34,988 bases of DNA from a virus. This document shows, piece after piece, positions 18,965 to 26,987 of the stretch. Position numbers and translations under genes: made by a program. The stretch spans positions 1-34,988 of IMG/VR virus record IMGVR_UViG_3300021961_000306. One strand, given 5' to 3'. The notes under the pieces are model-generated. The model worked only from the letters and a program-made list of their open reading frames with translations, was not told where the DNA came from and ran no database searches. Within the stretch, counting starts at the first letter, position 1. Each line of letters starts with the position of its first letter.

Positions 18965-19676
18965 TGAACAAAAAACTAGGCATCAACCAGCAGTAAGTAA
19001 TTCATTGAAGATTAAACCAGACCATCTAAAAACTTTTGAACCATTAACGGAGAATCAAAGATTATTTTTTGAAATGTATAAAGGCGGTGCCTACTTTATG
19101 GGACTATTCGGTAGTCCTGGAGTAGGCAAAACTTTTTTGGCACTATACAAATCACTTGAAGAAGTTTTGGATAAATCCAATTCATTCAAACAAGTGGTAA
19201 TCGTTCGTTCACTGGTACAGTTACGTGACGTTGGTTATTTACCAGGTAATCTTGATGAAAAACAAGAGATTTATGAGTTGCCTTACAAAGAAATTTGTAG
19301 TACACTATTTGGAAGACCAGATGCATGGGACAGGTTGAAAGAACAGGGCCATTGCAGGTTCATTTCAACTACAGCAATTCGTGGTATCTCTATTGATGAT
19401 GCTATCATTATTGTAGATGAGAACCAGAATTTAAACTGGTCAGAAGTGAATACGATTATTACCCGTGTTGGACACAGGTCTAAAATTATATTTTCAGGTG
19501 ATTTTAAACAAACAGATTTAATTAAAAGTAACAAAGACCAAACCGCATTTCATAGTTTCTTAGAAGTGGCACGTAAAATGCCATCCTTTCAAGAAATTTA
19601 CTTTACACCGGACGATATTGTGCGTTCCAGTCTAGTAAAACAATGGATTGTGGCCTGTGAAGAACTAGGTTACTAG
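18912..19676 (+). CDS. phoH: PhoH-like ATPase
   Basis: A 254-residue protein starting at the ATG at 18912, with AAGGGGAA upstream. Walker A is GSPGVGKT, Walker B AIIIVDENQN, and SGDFKQTDLIKSN is the motif after it. This matches phage PhoH-type P-loop ATPases related to the superfamily-1 helicase core. PhoH is very common in marine and freshwater phages, and its role during infection is unresolved. It ends in the RSSLVKQWIVACEELGY tail. Confidence 0.9.
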   Translation: MVTKKTTARYAAEQLQDDEQKTRHQPAVSNSLKIKPDHLKTFEPLTENQRLFFEMYKGGAYFMGLFGSPGVGKTFLALYKSLEEVLDKSNSFKQVVIVRSLVQLRDVGYLPGNLDEKQEIYELPYKEICSTLFGRPDAWDRLKEQGHCRFISTTAIRGISIDDAIIIVDENQNLNWSEVNTIITRVGHRSKIIFSGDFKQTDLIKSNKDQTAFHSFLEVARKMPSFQEIYFTPDDIVRSSLVKQWIVACEELGY

Positions 19677-19684
19677 GATAAATA
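19677..19684 (+). promoter_or_regulatory. T4-type late promoter motif (GATAAATA)
   Basis: GATAAATA lies directly after the phoH stop and 28 bases before the next start at 19712, with AAGAGGA between. The position suits late transcription, as does the NATAAATA form of late promoters in T4-like phages. The whole 19712-26987 gene run would follow from it. Confidence 0.6.
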
Positions 19685-19711
19685 ATTACTTAATATTTAA
19701 GAGGAAATACA

Positions 19712-21166
19712 ATGATTTTTGAAATTCAAGCTACACGATTCGATGATGGCGACAAACAAACATTTTTCTATGACAACATGGCAAACGTGTTGAAAGACTC
19801 AGCTGGTAATGTATTTGAGTTTCCTGAAGAACAACGACACAACCACGCAACAACACCATATAAATCTTTCGACAAGAATCATCCTCTTAAAAAATCTAAA
19901 TTAATAAACCATCTCAAAATTCAGATGGGTCTAAGTTGTAATTATTCTTGTGATTATTGCTCACAAAAATTTGTTGAACGCCAACCTGAAACTTCCAAAA
20001 AAGATATTGATGATTTTATGGCCAAGTTGGAAAATTTACGATTTGATGAGGATGTTGGTTTATGGGTTGAATTTTGGGGTGGTGAACCACTTGTTTATTG
20101 GAAAACATTGAAACCTTTGGCAGAAGCCATTGCAGAGAAATTTGATAGTTGGAAAACAAAACCAACTTTTAGTATTATTACAAATGGTTCCATTTTAACT
20201 GATGAAATCATTGATTGGCTGATGATGATGGATTTTGCAGTGGCAATTTCACATGATGGTCCTGGTCAATTTGTACGTGGACCTGATCCTTTTGATGATC
20301 CTGAACAAAAAGAACGTATTCTTGGATTTTATCGCATGATGACTAGACTTGGTAAACAATTCAGCTTCAATGCCATGTTGAATTCGAAGAATCAAAGTAG
20401 AAAAGAAATTTATGACTGGTTTGTAAATTTGACTGGTGATGAAAATGTAATAATTGGTGAAGGTTCTCTTGTCGATGCATACGATGAAGAAGGTATTTCA
20501 AACTCACTATTGACTAAAAAAGAACATTTTGAATTTAGGCAACGTGCATTTGGTGAATTGTATGCATCAGGTGGTAATTTAAATTTTACGTCAACATTAG
20601 GTAAAATCAATTCATTTATTAATGATGTATTGTCACACAATGAATCTAAATATTTGGGTCAGAAATGTGGAATGGATGATGAACACGTAATTGCTGTTGA
20701 CTTGCGTGGTAATGTGATGACTTGCCAAAATGTTAGTTCATTAGAAATTTCTAAAAACGGCGAACCGCACCATGGCGGTAATTTAGATGACTATTCAAAT
20801 GTTGAATTGAAATCAGTTACACATTGGTCAAATCGTAAAGAGTGTCCAGAATGTCCTGTATTACATATCTGTAAAGGTGCATGTATGTTCTTAGACGAAA
20901 AATTCTGGGATATTTCATGTGCAAATGCCTATTCTGATAATGTGGCGTCTTTTGCAGCTGCATTTACTTTGATTACACAAGGTTATGTGCCTACATTAAT
21001 CAAAGGAGAAAATTTACCACTACATAGACAAGATGTTTTTGGTACCATTTTTGAACATGAAGAAGATGAAAATCGCAAAAAAATCATACCAATCAAGGTA
21101 GTTAAGGAGATTATTGGTACCGTTGATGATGTTGCAGTGTATGGTAAATCTCGTTTGGAAACCTAA
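19712..21166 (+). CDS. Radical SAM/SPASM protein, probable peptide or protein maturase
   Basis: A 484-residue protein. The radical SAM cluster motif is C76-x3-C80-x2-C83 (SCNYSCDYC), followed by GGEP at 123-126. The C-terminal SPASM domain is complete: C319-x13-G-x4-C338, then C378-x2-C381-x5-C387-x3-C391, then C403. This seven-Cys pattern holds two auxiliary 4Fe-4S clusters in enzymes that modify peptides and proteins, such as sactipeptide maturases and anaerobic sulfatase-maturating enzymes. The next gene encodes an Asn-Cys-rich protein, an obvious candidate substrate; that link is inference from adjacency. The first 65 residues may be a recognition region. A late-promoter motif precedes it. 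Confidence 0.88.
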   Translation: MIFEIQATRFDDGDKQTFFYDNMANVLKDSAGNVFEFPEEQRHNHATTPYKSFDKNHPLKKSKLINHLKIQMGLSCNYSCDYCSQKFVERQPETSKKDIDDFMAKLENLRFDEDVGLWVEFWGGEPLVYWKTLKPLAEAIAEKFDSWKTKPTFSIITNGSILTDEIIDWLMMMDFAVAISHDGPGQFVRGPDPFDDPEQKERILGFYRMMTRLGKQFSFNAMLNSKNQSRKEIYDWFVNLTGDENVIIGEGSLVDAYDEEGISNSLLTKKEHFEFRQRAFGELYASGGNLNFTSTLGKINSFINDVLSHNESKYLGQKCGMDDEHVIAVDLRGNVMTCQNVSSLEISKNGEPHHGGNLDDYSNVELKSVTHWSNRKECPECPVLHICKGACMFLDEKFWDISCANAYSDNVASFAAAFTLITQGYVPTLIKGENLPLHRQDVFGTIFEHEEDENRKKIIPIKVVKEIIGTVDDVAVYGKSRLET

Positions 21167-21201
21167 ATATTAATAACAACATTTTATACGGATAAAGAAA
21201 A

Positions 21202-22152
21202 ATGGCAACACCAGATACAAATAGTGCAATTGGAGTATCCAACGTCAATACTGAAATAGGCCGAGGAACAGTTGCAACTGACTTGAATTTTTTAAACGGC
21301 TACCTAAAACCAAACGGCACAACACCAAAGAATGCTGGTGGCACAGTTTCAACACCCAATCCAATAAGACAAAGTAATCCACAAAATTTAGGATATTATC
21401 GAGGTGGATTAACTTACTATCAAAAAAACACTGCGGGAAATTGTCATAATACTAACAATGGTCTTGCTGATAATTGTGCAAGTGGTGACCAATCACATAA
21501 CTGTGTAGCATGTAAAAACTGTGGTGCTATTAATTGTGCTAACTGTGATACTCAAAAATGGTTGCAAGCCGGAAATTGTGAAAATGCAACAACACCAGTA
21601 TATAATTGCACTAGAACTACAAATTGTTATTTAACAAATTGTAATTGTTCTAAAATTATTTGTACTAAATTGTTTGACCTTGGTTTAATGAAGAAAGTCA
21701 TTTTTGAGGCCGACCAAGCATTTGGTGAAAGATTAATACAAACTAATCCCGACATTTACAATGGTTATCGTGCATGGGCTGAGATTGTTGTTGATTGGAT
21801 GGACGGCAAAGGTCCTAAGATGATGCCTTGGATGTCTGATGAAGAATTTAGTGCAGCTGCTAAGAAGTGGTCAATTTCATGGGCATATGATATTGCAACA
21901 CCTTGGGCAGAAGAAATGGCCTATATGATGGGTGAAAAAGAAACAGGTAGTTTGACTGGTAAAATGATGTTTGCTTTTGGTATACCAATTTGTAAAGTTG
22001 TTGGTGTATGGAAAAGATGGTTTGGACCAAGTAAGAAAGAGCCTGGATTCATTAAAGGTGCAGCACTTGTTGTAATTTTTGTTATGTTTAAACTGATTGC
22101 CGAACTAGGCCGTTTGATTGAAAGGTTCATTCCAAAGAAAAAGGTTACATGA
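21202..22152 (+). CDS. Asn-Cys-rich virion-like protein, candidate modified substrate
   Basis: A 316-residue protein in three parts. Residues 1-70 begin SAIGVSNVNTEIGRGTVATD, resembling the N-termini of phage tail-associated proteins. Residues 81-154 hold 13 cysteines (81, 92, 101, 104, 107, 112, 115, 126, 136, 142, 147, 149, 154), of which 11 directly follow Asn. Residues 160-316 form a Trp-rich domain (AWAEIVVDWMDGKGP, TPWAEEMAYMMGEKE) ending in a hydrophobic helix (GAALVVIFVMFKLIAEL) and a basic tail. I recall similar C-terminal domains in T4-like phage structural proteins, but cannot verify this. It lies between the SPASM enzyme and a run of oxygenase-like genes. Confidence 0.8.
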   Translation: MATPDTNSAIGVSNVNTEIGRGTVATDLNFLNGYLKPNGTTPKNAGGTVSTPNPIRQSNPQNLGYYRGGLTYYQKNTAGNCHNTNNGLADNCASGDQSHNCVACKNCGAINCANCDTQKWLQAGNCENATTPVYNCTRTTNCYLTNCNCSKIICTKLFDLGLMKKVIFEADQAFGERLIQTNPDIYNGYRAWAEIVVDWMDGKGPKMMPWMSDEEFSAAAKKWSISWAYDIATPWAEEMAYMMGEKETGSLTGKMMFAFGIPICKVVGVWKRWFGPSKKEPGFIKGAALVVIFVMFKLIAELGRLIERFIPKKKVT

Positions 22153-22460
22153 TGCCAACGTATTCATATCAAAGACCTGTTAAGATAACAGCAAACGGAA
22201 GAGATGAAAAATACAAAGCTGACCATTTAAAACATTTTATTAAAACTGTCATTTATCCAAATATATTATCTTTTTCAGAAGAAGATAAAGAAAAATATTT
22301 TAAATTTCATAGAGACTACGGAGTTTTATTGATGAAAATTTATGGCGACTCTGTAGAACTGTTTGGTGAAAAATATTTTCTAGCAGAAGCTTCAAAAAAT
22401 AATATAGATGATGTATTAGTTAATCAGTATAAAGAGTGGTTGGAGAAACAAGATGAGTAA
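22152..22460 (+). CDS. Small helical protein, paralogue of the 22453 gene
   Basis: Tandem ATGs lie at 22149 and 22152, overlapping the preceding stop. The product contains PNILSFSEEDKEKYFKFHRD and ends NQYKEWLEKQDE. The same two blocks occur, diverged, in the next gene (VLSLSKEDKELWFDAQIKYG and NEYKEWLNKQE), so the pair arose by duplication. Charged and soluble, with no cysteines to match its upstream neighbour. A chaperone or adaptor role is speculation. Confidence 0.75.
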   Translation: MPTYSYQRPVKITANGRDEKYKADHLKHFIKTVIYPNILSFSEEDKEKYFKFHRDYGVLLMKIYGDSVELFGEKYFLAEASKNNIDDVLVNQYKEWLEKQDE

Positions 22461-22779
22461 ATCGCAACTAACTTATTTACCGACTATTGAAGCCTCCGAT
22501 GGAAACATCATAACTTTTGAAGAAGATATCGTAAGAGATTTTTTTAATAATCAGATTAAAACCAACGTACTATCTTTGTCAAAAGAAGATAAAGAATTGT
22601 GGTTTGATGCACAAATTAAATATGGTGATATATTCCATAAAGTAATTGGATCCAACACTGCTGAAAAAATTATGGGTCCTATTGTATCTTTACAAACAGC
22701 CATAGAAAATGACTTGGAAGAAACCAAGGATGACCAACTATTAAATGAATATAAAGAGTGGTTAAATAAACAAGAGTGA
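22453..22779 (+). CDS. Small helical protein, paralogue of the 22152 gene
   Basis: A 108-residue product overlapping the preceding gene by 8 bases. It shares the SxEDKExxF block and the YKEWLxKQ C-terminus with that gene. Acidic and helical. It lies between the Asn-Cys protein and the first oxygenase gene. Function is unknown. Confidence 0.75.
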   Translation: MSKSQLTYLPTIEASDGNIITFEEDIVRDFFNNQIKTNVLSLSKEDKELWFDAQIKYGDIFHKVIGSNTAEKIMGPIVSLQTAIENDLEETKDDQLLNEYKEWLNKQE

Positions 22780-22792
22780 AAGTTTTTTTAAT

Positions 22793-23491
22793 ATGATGAC
22801 AACAAAAGAAGATAGAGATAGATACCATTGGTATCAAAATGCACAGAATATGTTTTGGCAAAGTCCAATATGGGAAGTGCAAACAAAATTTGATGAAGAA
22901 TTCAATGAAGTATTATTGGATGAAATTTATGGTATAGGTAAAGATATCGTATTGGGTAAAGACAAAGACCCGAACAATAGTATATGGGACTACAGCAGAC
23001 CCAATTTAGATATACTAAAACAAGAAATCATAGACATAGTAACCAAGAAGATTGTACAGAATATTCCTCAGTTGAGGATGTTAAACATACGTGGTTGCGA
23101 ACACTTTATGGGTTGGGTGAATGTGCGTGAACCTGGAGAACGTCTAGAGGTGCATGGACACACAGAATCGGCTATCGCAGCAACATACTACATCAAAGCT
23201 AAAGAAGGTTGTGGTGACCTTGTGGCTTTTGATTCTTCTCATTCTATTGATTGGGTGAACAATAAACTTAGTGGCAGTCCATTCATGCGTGAACGTAGGT
23301 TCAAACCAGTTGAAGGTCGCTTGATTTTTTTTCCATCTTACGTGTTGCATGGTGTTGATGAAAATAAATCCGATGACTTACGAATTTCGTTGTCCACTGA
23401 CCTGAGAAAAGTTGTCGATAAGAATGCTGCAAATACTGTCATTTTAAAATCGTGGGCTGGTCGCATGGCAAAAATTAGAGAATGGAAATAA
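22793..23491 (+). CDS. Putative 2OG-Fe(II) oxygenase
   Basis: A 232-residue protein. The C-terminal half has the double-stranded beta-helix pattern: HGHTES (H121, H123), then AATYYIKAKEGCGDLVAFD, then RLIFFPSYVLHGV (H186), then DDLRISLSTDL (R197 as 2-oxoglutarate ligand candidate). This matches the HxH...FPS-x-x-x-H-x-V...RIS layout of a phage/bacterial 2OG-Fe(II) oxygenase family. Such enzymes hydroxylate protein side chains or small molecules. The start has tandem ATGs and only a weak RBS. The gene lies in the same late cluster as the SPASM enzyme. Confidence 0.8.
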   Translation: MMTTKEDRDRYHWYQNAQNMFWQSPIWEVQTKFDEEFNEVLLDEIYGIGKDIVLGKDKDPNNSIWDYSRPNLDILKQEIIDIVTKKIVQNIPQLRMLNIRGCEHFMGWVNVREPGERLEVHGHTESAIAATYYIKAKEGCGDLVAFDSSHSIDWVNNKLSGSPFMRERRFKPVEGRLIFFPSYVLHGVDENKSDDLRISLSTDLRKVVDKNAANTVILKSWAGRMAKIREWK

Positions 23492-24021
23492 TGTTTATCA
23501 AATTGGAAAAATCTTTTGAGAAACCATTATATGCAGTTACCGACAATTTAAAAACTTTTAAACATGATGGTAAAGGCATAGACTATAAAAAGGTATGGTC
23601 ACCTGAGGCTGAGAAAATTTATGGTGTATTGCCAAAAAGATATTGGCAGGATTTCCACTTGACAGTTATGACAATTGATTGTATAATCCCACCACATACA
23701 GATACAGAAATTGTTACCTCAATTAATTTCTATTTACAAACGGAAGGATGCACAACTACATTCTATAAACCAAAAATGGAAAATTTGAGAACTGTACAAG
23801 TTGAGAATCAAACAGACGGTCACATATATTTCGAAGATGATTTAGTAGAAATTGGCAGTTTTGTTGCCAAAGATTATGAGATTTGGTTACTTGATGTAAG
23901 TCAAATACATGGCGTTAAAGGTGAATTCAATTTACGTAAAGCCCTCACTTTAGGAACTTTTATTCATAAGTATGAGGATGTGATTGAAATGTTAAAGGAG
24001 ACCGGTAATGTCATTTATTAA
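23491..24021 (+). CDS. Oxygenase-like beta-helix protein (HxD...H), copy 1
   Basis: A 176-residue protein starting at the ATG sharing a base with the preceding TAA. H69-x-D71 (PHTD) and H140 (SQIHGV) give an Fe(II)-binding triad, and R149 is a candidate 2OG ligand. The strands around them (SINFYLQ, EIWLLDV) fit a cupin/double-stranded beta-helix. It is a clear paralogue of the next gene: same start (FIKL), same W-x-PE-x-EK block, same tail (YEDVIEMLKETGNV). Hydroxylase activity is inferred from the triad. Confidence 0.7.
   Translation: MFIKLEKSFEKPLYAVTDNLKTFKHDGKGIDYKKVWSPEAEKIYGVLPKRYWQDFHLTVMTIDCIIPPHTDTEIVTSINFYLQTEGCTTTFYKPKMENLRTVQVENQTDGHIYFEDDLVEIGSFVAKDYEIWLLDVSQIHGVKGEFNLRKALTLGTFIHKYEDVIEMLKETGNVIY
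23659..23687 (+). promoter_or_regulatory. Candidate intragenic promoter
   Basis: Perfect TTGACA (23659-23664), 17 bp, TATAAT (23682-23687), within the preceding gene and about 320 bp before 24008. The bases also encode the conserved LTVMTIDCII strand, so coincidence is possible. Confidence 0.4.
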
Positions 24022-24668: not shown

Positions 24669-25442
24669 ATGTTTTTTGAAAAATTGAACTACACAGTAGA
24701 TATTGAAAAATTAAAACAAGAGGTGCGTGAAAGTGTTTTTACTTTAGGTGACAAAGTTGTCCAAGGTGAAGAATATGAGACACCGCAATATCATGGATTT
24801 GGTGGTTGGAGTTTATTGAGTAAAAAAGCCATATGGACAGATGGATGGGAAGCTATTCAACTTGAATCTGGTGAATCATTGGAGTCTTTTTTACCAACAC
24901 AAGAATTAATTTTCAAAGCATACAAACATTTTGACATTTCACATGGACTTGAACATGATAAACCAACCGAAGCTTATGTTGGTGAAATCAAAAAAGTTAT
25001 TGATGATTTGCGAGATTTAGGTTTTCATCCAACTAGAGCTAGGGTCACTTGTTTAAAGGCACACTCAAAGAGTCTTGTACATAGAGATGCAGATGCAACA
25101 GAGTATATGACAAGAATTCATATTCCATTGTGGACCAACAAAAAATGTGTACATATATGTGAAGGTAAAAATTTGCACATGCCCGCTGATGGTAGTGTAT
25201 GGATGCTTTGGACCAATAGATGGCATCAAATTAGAAATGATTCTGATGAAGATAGATATCACATCATTATGGACGCATATGATACAAAGAAAATTACGAA
25301 CAATATGAAATATGAAGGTGATTTTGAAATGTTTCGGGAATGGGTACGTGGCCAACGAGAACAAATTGATTCTGCGGATTTGACACAGGAAGATATTGAT
25401 TTCTTTGAAGCTATCAGAAGTAGATACTTAACCAAAAAATAA
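24669..25442 (+). CDS. Aspartyl/asparaginyl beta-hydroxylase-like protein
   Basis: A 257-residue protein with GGAAA upstream of the ATG. The Asp/Asn hydroxylase pattern is visible: H138-R-D140 (LVHRDAD), R149 in TRIHIPLW, H186 in NRWHQIRN and R196 in DRYHIIMD. These are the iron and 2-oxoglutarate ligands of the family, whose eukaryotic founder hydroxylates Asp/Asn in Cys-rich EGF-like domains. That is notable here, since the nearby 21202 protein is rich in both Asn and Cys. The substrate is inferred, not shown. Confidence 0.8.
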   Translation: MFFEKLNYTVDIEKLKQEVRESVFTLGDKVVQGEEYETPQYHGFGGWSLLSKKAIWTDGWEAIQLESGESLESFLPTQELIFKAYKHFDISHGLEHDKPTEAYVGEIKKVIDDLRDLGFHPTRARVTCLKAHSKSLVHRDADATEYMTRIHIPLWTNKKCVHICEGKNLHMPADGSVWMLWTNRWHQIRNDSDEDRYHIIMDAYDTKKITNNMKYEGDFEMFREWVRGQREQIDSADLTQEDIDFFEAIRSRYLTKK

Positions 25443-25445
25443 AAT

Positions 25446-26987
25446 ATGAGAAAAGTTGATGGTATAATTTTTACTGGTACACAAAACAGTACAACAAATA
25501 ATAGGCCAGCTGGAGCAGCCAGGTTAAGAACATTTCTTGGCCAACACAATTATGATATTGAGGTTGTGGATTTTTTTTATGAATTTACGACCGATGAACT
25601 TTGTGCTGCCTGTGATAATTTCATAGATGAAACAACTTTGTTTGTTGGAGTAAGTATCACTTTCATTTATGAAACGGATAAAATCAATAAACTTTTTAAT
25701 CATATTAAAACAAAATATCCTAAAGTAAAAAGAATTATTGGTGGTTCAGAGGGTTCGGTCGAAGGTTTAGATGGAACATTAGTTGATAGATTTATATGGG
25801 GTTATTCTGAACAAGCTGTTTTACATTATTTAAAATTTCTACAAAGAAAAAGACTTGATGATTTGAAATGGGAACCTTATCACGGTTCATACGCTATTAA
25901 TGCGGAATCATTTTATAAAAATGATGACACCGATTTGACTATTAAATGGTTGGAATCCGATTTAATCAAAACAAATTTTTTGCCAATAGAAATAAGTAGG
26001 GGTTGCATTTTTAAATGTAGATTTTGTCAATTCCCTTTATTGGGTAAGAAAAAAAGTGATTATATTAGACATGTTGATAACCTAACTGATGAAATTCGCA
26101 GAAATTATGAAATGTTTGGAGTAACAAATTATTGGTTCAATGATGATACACTCAATGATAATATTATTAAATTGGAATACATTGCTGAAGCTATTCAAAA
26201 GAGTGGAGTGAAAATAACATATAGTGCATTTTTACGAGCAGACTTAATGGCCAGATTTCCTGAAACTATTCCAATGTTAGCAGATACGGGTTTAGCCTCA
26301 GCTGTTTTTGGTATAGAAACATTACATCCATTGGCCAAAAAAATTGTTGGAAAAGGACAAGATTCAGAAAGACAGTTTGATGCCATTAGACAACTAAAAA
26401 AACTTGCTCCTATATGGACACAAACTGGAATGATTGTTGGATTACCTGAAGAACCTTTGTCTAGTATTTTTCAAACTCAGAAAACCTTTCTTGAAATGAA
26501 TGAAAATTTTGAAGTATTAAACCAGTGGTTTTGGTTTTCTTTAACACTCAGGAAAAAAGGAATGACACGTTTAAGTGAATTCGAAAGAGAACATGAAAAA
26601 TATGGTTATTCTGAAATGGATGTAAATGAATTAAAAAAAGGATATTTGAATTTAGATAGTCTTATAATACACTTTGGAAATGAAAAGACGATGTATTGGA
26701 AAAATAAATACACCAATTTTTTTCAAGCAAATTACATTGCTGAGATTTTGAACCAAGAAGTTGAAAAATTTAGATTGGAACGTGGTATGAGATACACTGA
26801 CCAACCAATAGGTGAACACAATAACGCATGGGGACATATTGCACTTTTACCACACGAACTTATTGGTTTAGGATTTACACCAAAGGAAATTGTGGAAGGA
26901 ACAATCGACAAAAAATTGTTATTTGAAAAAATGAAACAATCAAAAAATGATATTAAGAATTACAAAAAACTAAAATTAGGATTATAA
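25446..26987 (+). CDS. Radical SAM protein with N-terminal B12-binding-like domain
   Basis: A 513-residue protein. Residues 1-135 look like the Rossmann domain found at the N-terminus of B12-dependent radical SAM enzymes (LRTFLGQHNYDIEVVDFF, then RIIGGSEGSVEGL), but no clear DxHxxG cobalamin-binding motif is visible. The radical SAM motif follows: C187-x3-C191-x2-C194 (GCIFKCRFC). Downstream are FGIETLHP and TGMIVGLPEEP, typical of the TIM-barrel. Family members perform methylations, methylthiolations and ring rearrangements. The last 130 residues are family-specific. The stop shares a base with the next ATG. Confidence 0.82.
   Translation: MRKVDGIIFTGTQNSTTNNRPAGAARLRTFLGQHNYDIEVVDFFYEFTTDELCAACDNFIDETTLFVGVSITFIYETDKINKLFNHIKTKYPKVKRIIGGSEGSVEGLDGTLVDRFIWGYSEQAVLHYLKFLQRKRLDDLKWEPYHGSYAINAESFYKNDDTDLTIKWLESDLIKTNFLPIEISRGCIFKCRFCQFPLLGKKKSDYIRHVDNLTDEIRRNYEMFGVTNYWFNDDTLNDNIIKLEYIAEAIQKSGVKITYSAFLRADLMARFPETIPMLADTGLASAVFGIETLHPLAKKIVGKGQDSERQFDAIRQLKKLAPIWTQTGMIVGLPEEPLSSIFQTQKTFLEMNENFEVLNQWFWFSLTLRKKGMTRLSEFEREHEKYGYSEMDVNELKKGYLNLDSLIIHFGNEKTMYWKNKYTNFFQANYIAEILNQEVEKFRLERGMRYTDQPIGEHNNAWGHIALLPHELIGLGFTPKEIVEGTIDKKLLFEKMKQSKNDIKNYKKLKLGL

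Follow-up and report, generated by a model that had tools for sequence, protein, structure and literature searches.

The window analyzed here is the whole 34,988-base virus record, whose phage genes include PhoH, an exonuclease, and a single-strand DNA binding protein. On its plus strand, a radical SAM/SPASM enzyme gene is followed after 35 bp by a gene for a virion-type protein with an Asn-Cys block, and then by putative accessory genes:

19712–21166, + strand: radical SAM/SPASM enzyme, 484 aa, the presumed tract modifier (from motifs, invariant Cys, Pfam, and structure model)
19937–19960, + strand: radical SAM cluster motif CNYSCDYC, aa 76–83, invariant in relatives
20666–20920, + strand: SPASM domain with seven Cys, Cys 319–403 (from the Cys pattern and invariant Cys)
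21202–22152, + strand: presumed substrate, a virion-type protein of 316 aa (adjoins the radical SAM gene in relatives; has poly-Gly homologues without the enzyme)
21202–21441, + strand: its N-terminal part, with a motif like MTLPxSGxIxxxDIxxEIG of phage fiber-type proteins (weak profile match)
21442–21663, + strand: Asn-Cys block, aa 81–154, 13 Cys (poly-Gly instead where the enzyme is absent)
21652–22149, + strand: C-terminal KIICTKL domain, predicted helical, pLDDT mostly 77–90 (structure model)
22793–23491, + strand: 2OG-Fe(II) oxygenase (PF13759 by Pfam), a possible second modifying enzyme; homologues near the radical SAM gene in all three locus sets
23482–24021, + strand: conserved neighbor, oxygenase-like by eye, no family match; homologue in 68/74 close loci
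24669–25442, + strand: aspartyl/asparaginyl beta-hydroxylase-like protein (PF05118 by Pfam), cassette membership uncertain; homologue in 65/74 close loci

The enzyme fulfills the superfamily-level criteria of radical SAM/SPASM maturases, a CxxxCxxC motif and a seven-Cys SPASM domain. Its ORF carries GGEP at aa 123–126 and the full SPASM pattern (C319-x13-G-x4-C338 ... C378-x2-C381-x5-C387-x3-C391 ... C403). The protein's ten Cys all belong to these motifs, the cluster motif holding three and SPASM the other seven, and each is kept without exception among 60–62 diverse relatives. The Pfam Radical_SAM model matches above its cutoff, and the predicted structure is confident (pLDDT 92). We also looked for an RRE domain in the N-terminal region: no Pfam match was found there, the first 60 residues of the model fold into a few strands and show no clear winged helix, and the structural alignment to CteB begins at residue 1. 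The initial annotation, made from the sequence alone, had claimed the radical SAM motif, GGEP, and seven-Cys SPASM domain in this product and 13 Cys in a 74-residue block of the next gene's protein; both claims held.

At the window Cys frequency of 1.1%, the chance of 13 Cys in residues 81–154 is ∼2.5e-12. Across the family, 72% of block Cys follow an Asn, against a background of 8.8%. The window block uses TGT for 12 of its 13 Cys, but a repeat-DNA artifact was rejected: Three Asn-Cys tails of other loci mix Asn and Cys codons. The structure model is uninformative on the block itself (pLDDT about 30).

The annotation's further claim, a phage-structural-type N terminus, held only indirectly. 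The window protein has no match in Pfam, NCBIfam, or PHROG, tail-fiber families included, so its fiber nature is inferred from its relatives and from a weak profile match of its N terminus to a 362-aa fiber-like protein of a related phage (E 2e-5). The relatives point the same way: The C-terminal domain is common to poly-Gly fiber-type proteins and to a gene adjoining a cyanophage fiber gene, and relatives of the tract occur on proteins matching tail-fiber families. Near one cassette, a fiber-like protein (L071:6557–7642) has an N-terminal motif in common with the Asn-Cys proteins (E 2e-5). In phage proteins, the KIICTKL domain (about 165 residues; window 21652–22149, L104–L115) sits after a tract of either poly-Gly or Asn-Cys. 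It belongs to no Pfam or PHROGs family, and no solved relative was found (no PDB match at E below 0.001); among predicted viral proteins it has four matches at E below 0.001, one of them labeled DUF4815.

Failure of the two families to co-occur in other genomes had been set beforehand as a possible refutation. We ran this check in both directions, and the families do co-occur. A radical SAM scan of viral contigs yielded 79 loci with a Cys-block protein beside the enzyme, mostly just downstream; in five of them (L071–L074 and L076), this protein is shorter, lies upstream, and lacks the C-terminal domain. A scan of bacterial genomes, with an alignment of 21 family members as query, yielded 80 loci, many apparently prophages, from Limnohabitans, Burkholderia, Polynucleobacter, roseobacters, Magnetospirillum, and others. 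Together with Achromobacter phage 2-1, 59 of these 81 loci have a same-strand gene with a C.C.C.C pattern, and looser inspection adds a few (e.g., L239, L263, L268, and L297).

For an enzyme-first count, we took non-redundant loci with room on both sides, applied a strict Asn-Cys pattern, and divided the loci into four classes by enzyme bit score. The pattern found an Asn-Cys gene in 23/31 loci at ≥600 bits, 27/28 at 450–600 bits, 17/17 at 345–450 bits, and 14/23 at 250–345 bits. The eight misses in the top class do have Cys-block proteins, with 8 to 16 Cys, that the pattern skipped. With these eight counted by reading, an Asn-Cys protein lies near the enzyme in 75/76 non-redundant loci at ≥345 bits with room; the lone exception (L242) carries a same-family fiber with a reading frame truncated ahead of the tail. 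The edge of the enzyme family is blurred at 250–345 bits, since these distant relatives often lack an Asn-Cys gene (absent in 9/23), and this counts against the maturation reading. Two further arrangements were observed among the loci: Thalassobacter stenotrophicus CECT 5294 has three (L285, L289, and L313), each with an Asn-Cys-tailed gene upstream of the enzyme, and in L029:1850–3291 and L043:9458–10893 two fatty-acid-desaturase-looking genes lie between the enzyme and the Asn-Cys protein.

The reverse scan searched DNA for CNCNCxCNC, blind to any enzyme, and gave at least 80 loci. The motif lies inside an ORF in 66 of these 80. A related radical SAM gene is present in the contig for 55 of these 66 ORFs, within the fetched stretch for 46 and elsewhere in the contig for 9, whereas none of the 14 motif matches outside ORFs has one. 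In the 46 stretches, the enzyme is on the strand of the motif ORF in every case and downstream in 45. Only weak scores (37–83 bits) were reached by four of the 46 enzymes: The gene runs off the end of the stretch in L127, L168, and L169, and L160 holds a whole but distant radical SAM. Four more motif ORFs are cut off at the end of the stretch, which for L161 is the end of the contig. The remaining seven have no radical SAM gene; the motif is internal in 7/7, and most are short or dubious. Two longer ORFs (L179:860–4546 and L176:4305–4970) have an internal CNCNCNCNC stretch and no family enzyme in contigs of 108 and 146 kb, and these are the best counterexamples to a strict tract–enzyme link. 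Among the 55 paired proteins, which reduce to 35 distinct ones, the motif ends ≤9 residues from the C terminus in 54. Pairing of the enzyme with the Asn-Cys protein is strongly supported from both sides, across phages and prophages.

Poly-Gly homologues provide a natural control. Fiber-type phage proteins L104–L112 resemble the window protein in their C-terminal KIICTKL domain and similar N-terminal start, but they carry poly-Gly where it has the Cys block. They have no family radical SAM enzyme, even on contigs of 99–337 kb, where the best search result was a partial 70-bit match to some other radical SAM protein. On a tree of the KIICTKL domain, the tract state requires four changes, two of them forced by well-supported branches. 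The enzyme goes with the tract, not with the domain.

The system extends beyond what the initial annotation saw: The usual target is inferred to be the C-terminal tip of a tail fiber, and a 2OG-Fe(II) oxygenase is often present. In 146 distinct Asn-Cys proteins, the tract lies at the C terminus in 98, before a KIICTKL-type (KIIC) domain in 39, and before a Hint domain in 6. Achromobacter phages JWF and 2-1, as well as prophages, show this last arrangement. The tracts follow a C-x-C pattern in which x is Asn (67%), Ala (19%), or Asp (7%); the commonest Cys spacing is 2, and the intervening residue is not always Asn or Asp. Several carriers of the same system match tail-fiber families (L118, L145, L147, and L196), and some have collagen repeats. 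The pair occurs in a cultured siphophage-like tail module, in prophages of several proteobacterial classes, and in T4-like phages. The cultured phages with the system are JWF and 2-1; the gene order in JWF is tape measure, tail proteins, central fiber J, small protein, Asn-Cys fiber, unknown gene, radical SAM enzyme, unknown gene, endolysin.

Two further proteins recur near the enzyme, as co-occurrences whose roles are inferred. A PF13759-type oxygenase is present in 20/31 (≥600 bits), 24/28 (450–600), 9/17 (345–450), and 9/23 (250–345) loci of the enzyme classes and in 0/12 poly-Gly loci. The other protein matches nothing in Pfam and closes with a LGLxxGDxxRVKxGFKYF-like segment; it is found in 24/28 (450–600), 15/17 (345–450), and 13/23 (250–345) loci but in only 2/31 of the window's own class (≥600). 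That class has additional conserved neighbors, including the Asp/Asn beta-hydroxylase-like protein.

Comparison with known enzymes places the window enzyme among peptide maturases without assigning it to a named family. CteB (the SCIFF maturase; PDB 5WHY/5WGG; TIGR03974) has the same radical SAM plus SPASM fold and in a second structural alignment is the closest solved one (Z 23.5 over 350 residues), followed by ChlB (19.2), anSME (18.9), and TigE (17.6), with EpeE at about 12. The two differ in sequence, at 18% identity, and the window enzyme scores 52 bits against the TIGR03974 cutoff of 425. CteB acts on a short peptide rather than on a virion protein. Among NCBIfam profiles, PapB (NF047865) fits the window enzyme best and also hits each of the 21 members scanned, yet the window enzyme reaches only 79.7 bits where the cutoff is 340. 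The PapB enzyme itself links Cys to Asp/Glu across gaps of 0 to 6 residues (PMC9413430). Its substrates carry Cys-X3-Asp repeats, a criterion that the C-x-C tracts, with x mostly Asn or Ala, do not meet. The third-best profile, QhpD (TIGR03906; 64 bits against a cutoff of 453), represents an enzyme that crosslinks a subunit of quinohemoprotein amine dehydrogenase, that is, a working protein and not a natural-product peptide; QhpD is nevertheless a bacterial periplasmic enzyme, and its target is not a virion. Membership in a named maturase family was rejected, the window enzyme being far below every listed NCBIfam cutoff. Across 21 diverse members, the best E-values are similar in order of magnitude; each of the 21 is also matched by sulfatase maturase models. 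Among phage proteins, the window enzyme matches phrog_1802 (211 bits across 398 residues), a group of radical SAM proteins that takes in JWF gp30; its annotation reads only radical SAM domain-containing and states no fiber link.

These relationships bear on the probable chemistry without settling it. Foldseek ranks anSME, a Cys/Ser oxidase, first, so the reaction cannot be read from the fold alone. Peptide maturases are the nearest matches by both fold and profile, and several of them, of the CteB and PapB type, join Cys sulfur to carbon, so thioether crosslinking is a fair guess; PapB tolerates directly adjacent Cys and Asp (PMC9413430), which makes dense crosslinking conceivable. The C-x-C pattern suggests, by inference, Cys as the reacting residue and a neighbor chosen for small size or as acceptor. 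On balance we lean toward thioether formation by the family enzyme, an inference for which there are no biochemical or proteomic data. The annotation's proposal of a RiPP-like maturation is supported by the gene pairing and the maturase-like folds and profiles; Cys modification and its kind are not shown.

We interpret the locus as one likely instance of a widespread phage RiPP-like maturation cassette acting on the Asn-Cys tract of a fiber-type virion protein, with the modification itself inferred. Four elements are directly supported: the two-way gene pairing, the tract position, the ten invariant Cys, and the poly-Gly tract where the enzyme is absent. In the proposed mechanism, a virion protein, usually a tail fiber, bears an Asn-Cys tract, in most families at its extreme C terminus, and the phage's own radical SAM/SPASM enzyme would modify this tract post-translationally, the tract's role as substrate being inferred. 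The product would be Cys-derived thioether bonds, as made by CteB, the closest structural relative; the 2OG-Fe(II) oxygenase may add a second modification; and the outcome would be a stiff or receptor-binding fiber tip. More speculatively, a Hint or KIICTKL domain after the tract may be removed, leaving a mature protein that also ends in the tract. A bolder reading, which we favor by a narrow margin, is that phages put radical post-translational chemistry to work on the virion: A self-encoded radical SAM enzyme, frequently accompanied by a 2OG-Fe(II) oxygenase, builds a covalently stitched Asn-Cys tip on tail fibers as an alternative to a poly-Gly tract.

The most serious rival is that the enzyme modifies the tract without forming thioethers, either by epimerizing alternate residues to D-amino acids or by oxidizing Cys (formylglycine type); taken together, these outcomes remain possible. 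An alternating C-x-C tract would suit an alternating D/L product, an inference. The first Foldseek rank of anSME, the sulfatase maturase matches in all 21 members, and the presence of the EpeE epimerase among structural matches also favor this rival. Against it, CteB scores clearly above EpeE and somewhat above anSME in the second alignment, and a tract defined by Cys points to sulfur chemistry. A CxPxR-type sulfatase motif was not seen in the listed tracts.

An unlikely alternative is that the Cys tract binds metal or iron–sulfur clusters at the fiber tip, with the enzyme acting elsewhere or preparing the site. The T4 fiber tip, with its HxH iron sites, offers a model, and the regular C-x-C spacing on proteins expected to be trimeric from their collagen repeats is in keeping with it. 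Metal binding does not itself explain the strict association of enzyme and tract, however, and could coexist with modification. That the two genes are merely neighbors in related phages through shared ancestry or hitch-hiking is very unlikely: Close relatives of the window do have other neighbors in common (PhoH in 27/74 and exonuclease in 50/74 close loci), but the pair persists where other neighbors differ, the KIICTKL domain without the tract is also without the enzyme, and the two-way scan largely refutes this explanation.

Radical SAM/SPASM maturation itself is known; its virion setting is without precedent in the open-licence literature searched, where we found no earlier description of the NCNCNC motif or of radical SAM enzymes with phage fibers, and earlier work may exist elsewhere. 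If the tract-maturation reading is true, RiPP-like covalent modifications exist on the organelles that phages use for adsorption, and many radical SAM genes of environmental phages and prophages gain a function. Peptide engineering could then also draw on a broad family of enzymes whose targets are very short (Asn-Cys)n tails. The cultured phages JWF and 2-1 make the proposal directly testable.

A viperin or defense role for the enzyme was considered and rejected: Only weak pVip matches of about 44 bits were found, and the fiber linkage argues against it. Within 19000–23500, promoter-like sites show no excess over shuffles; four terminator-like sites occur against a shuffle mean of 2.0, a count not used as evidence. 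The window also encodes a second radical SAM protein (25446–26987, 513 aa) with a weak N-terminal B12-binding match and a weak match (42 bits) to the candidate defense model PDC-M51A; a homologue is present in 21/74 close loci.
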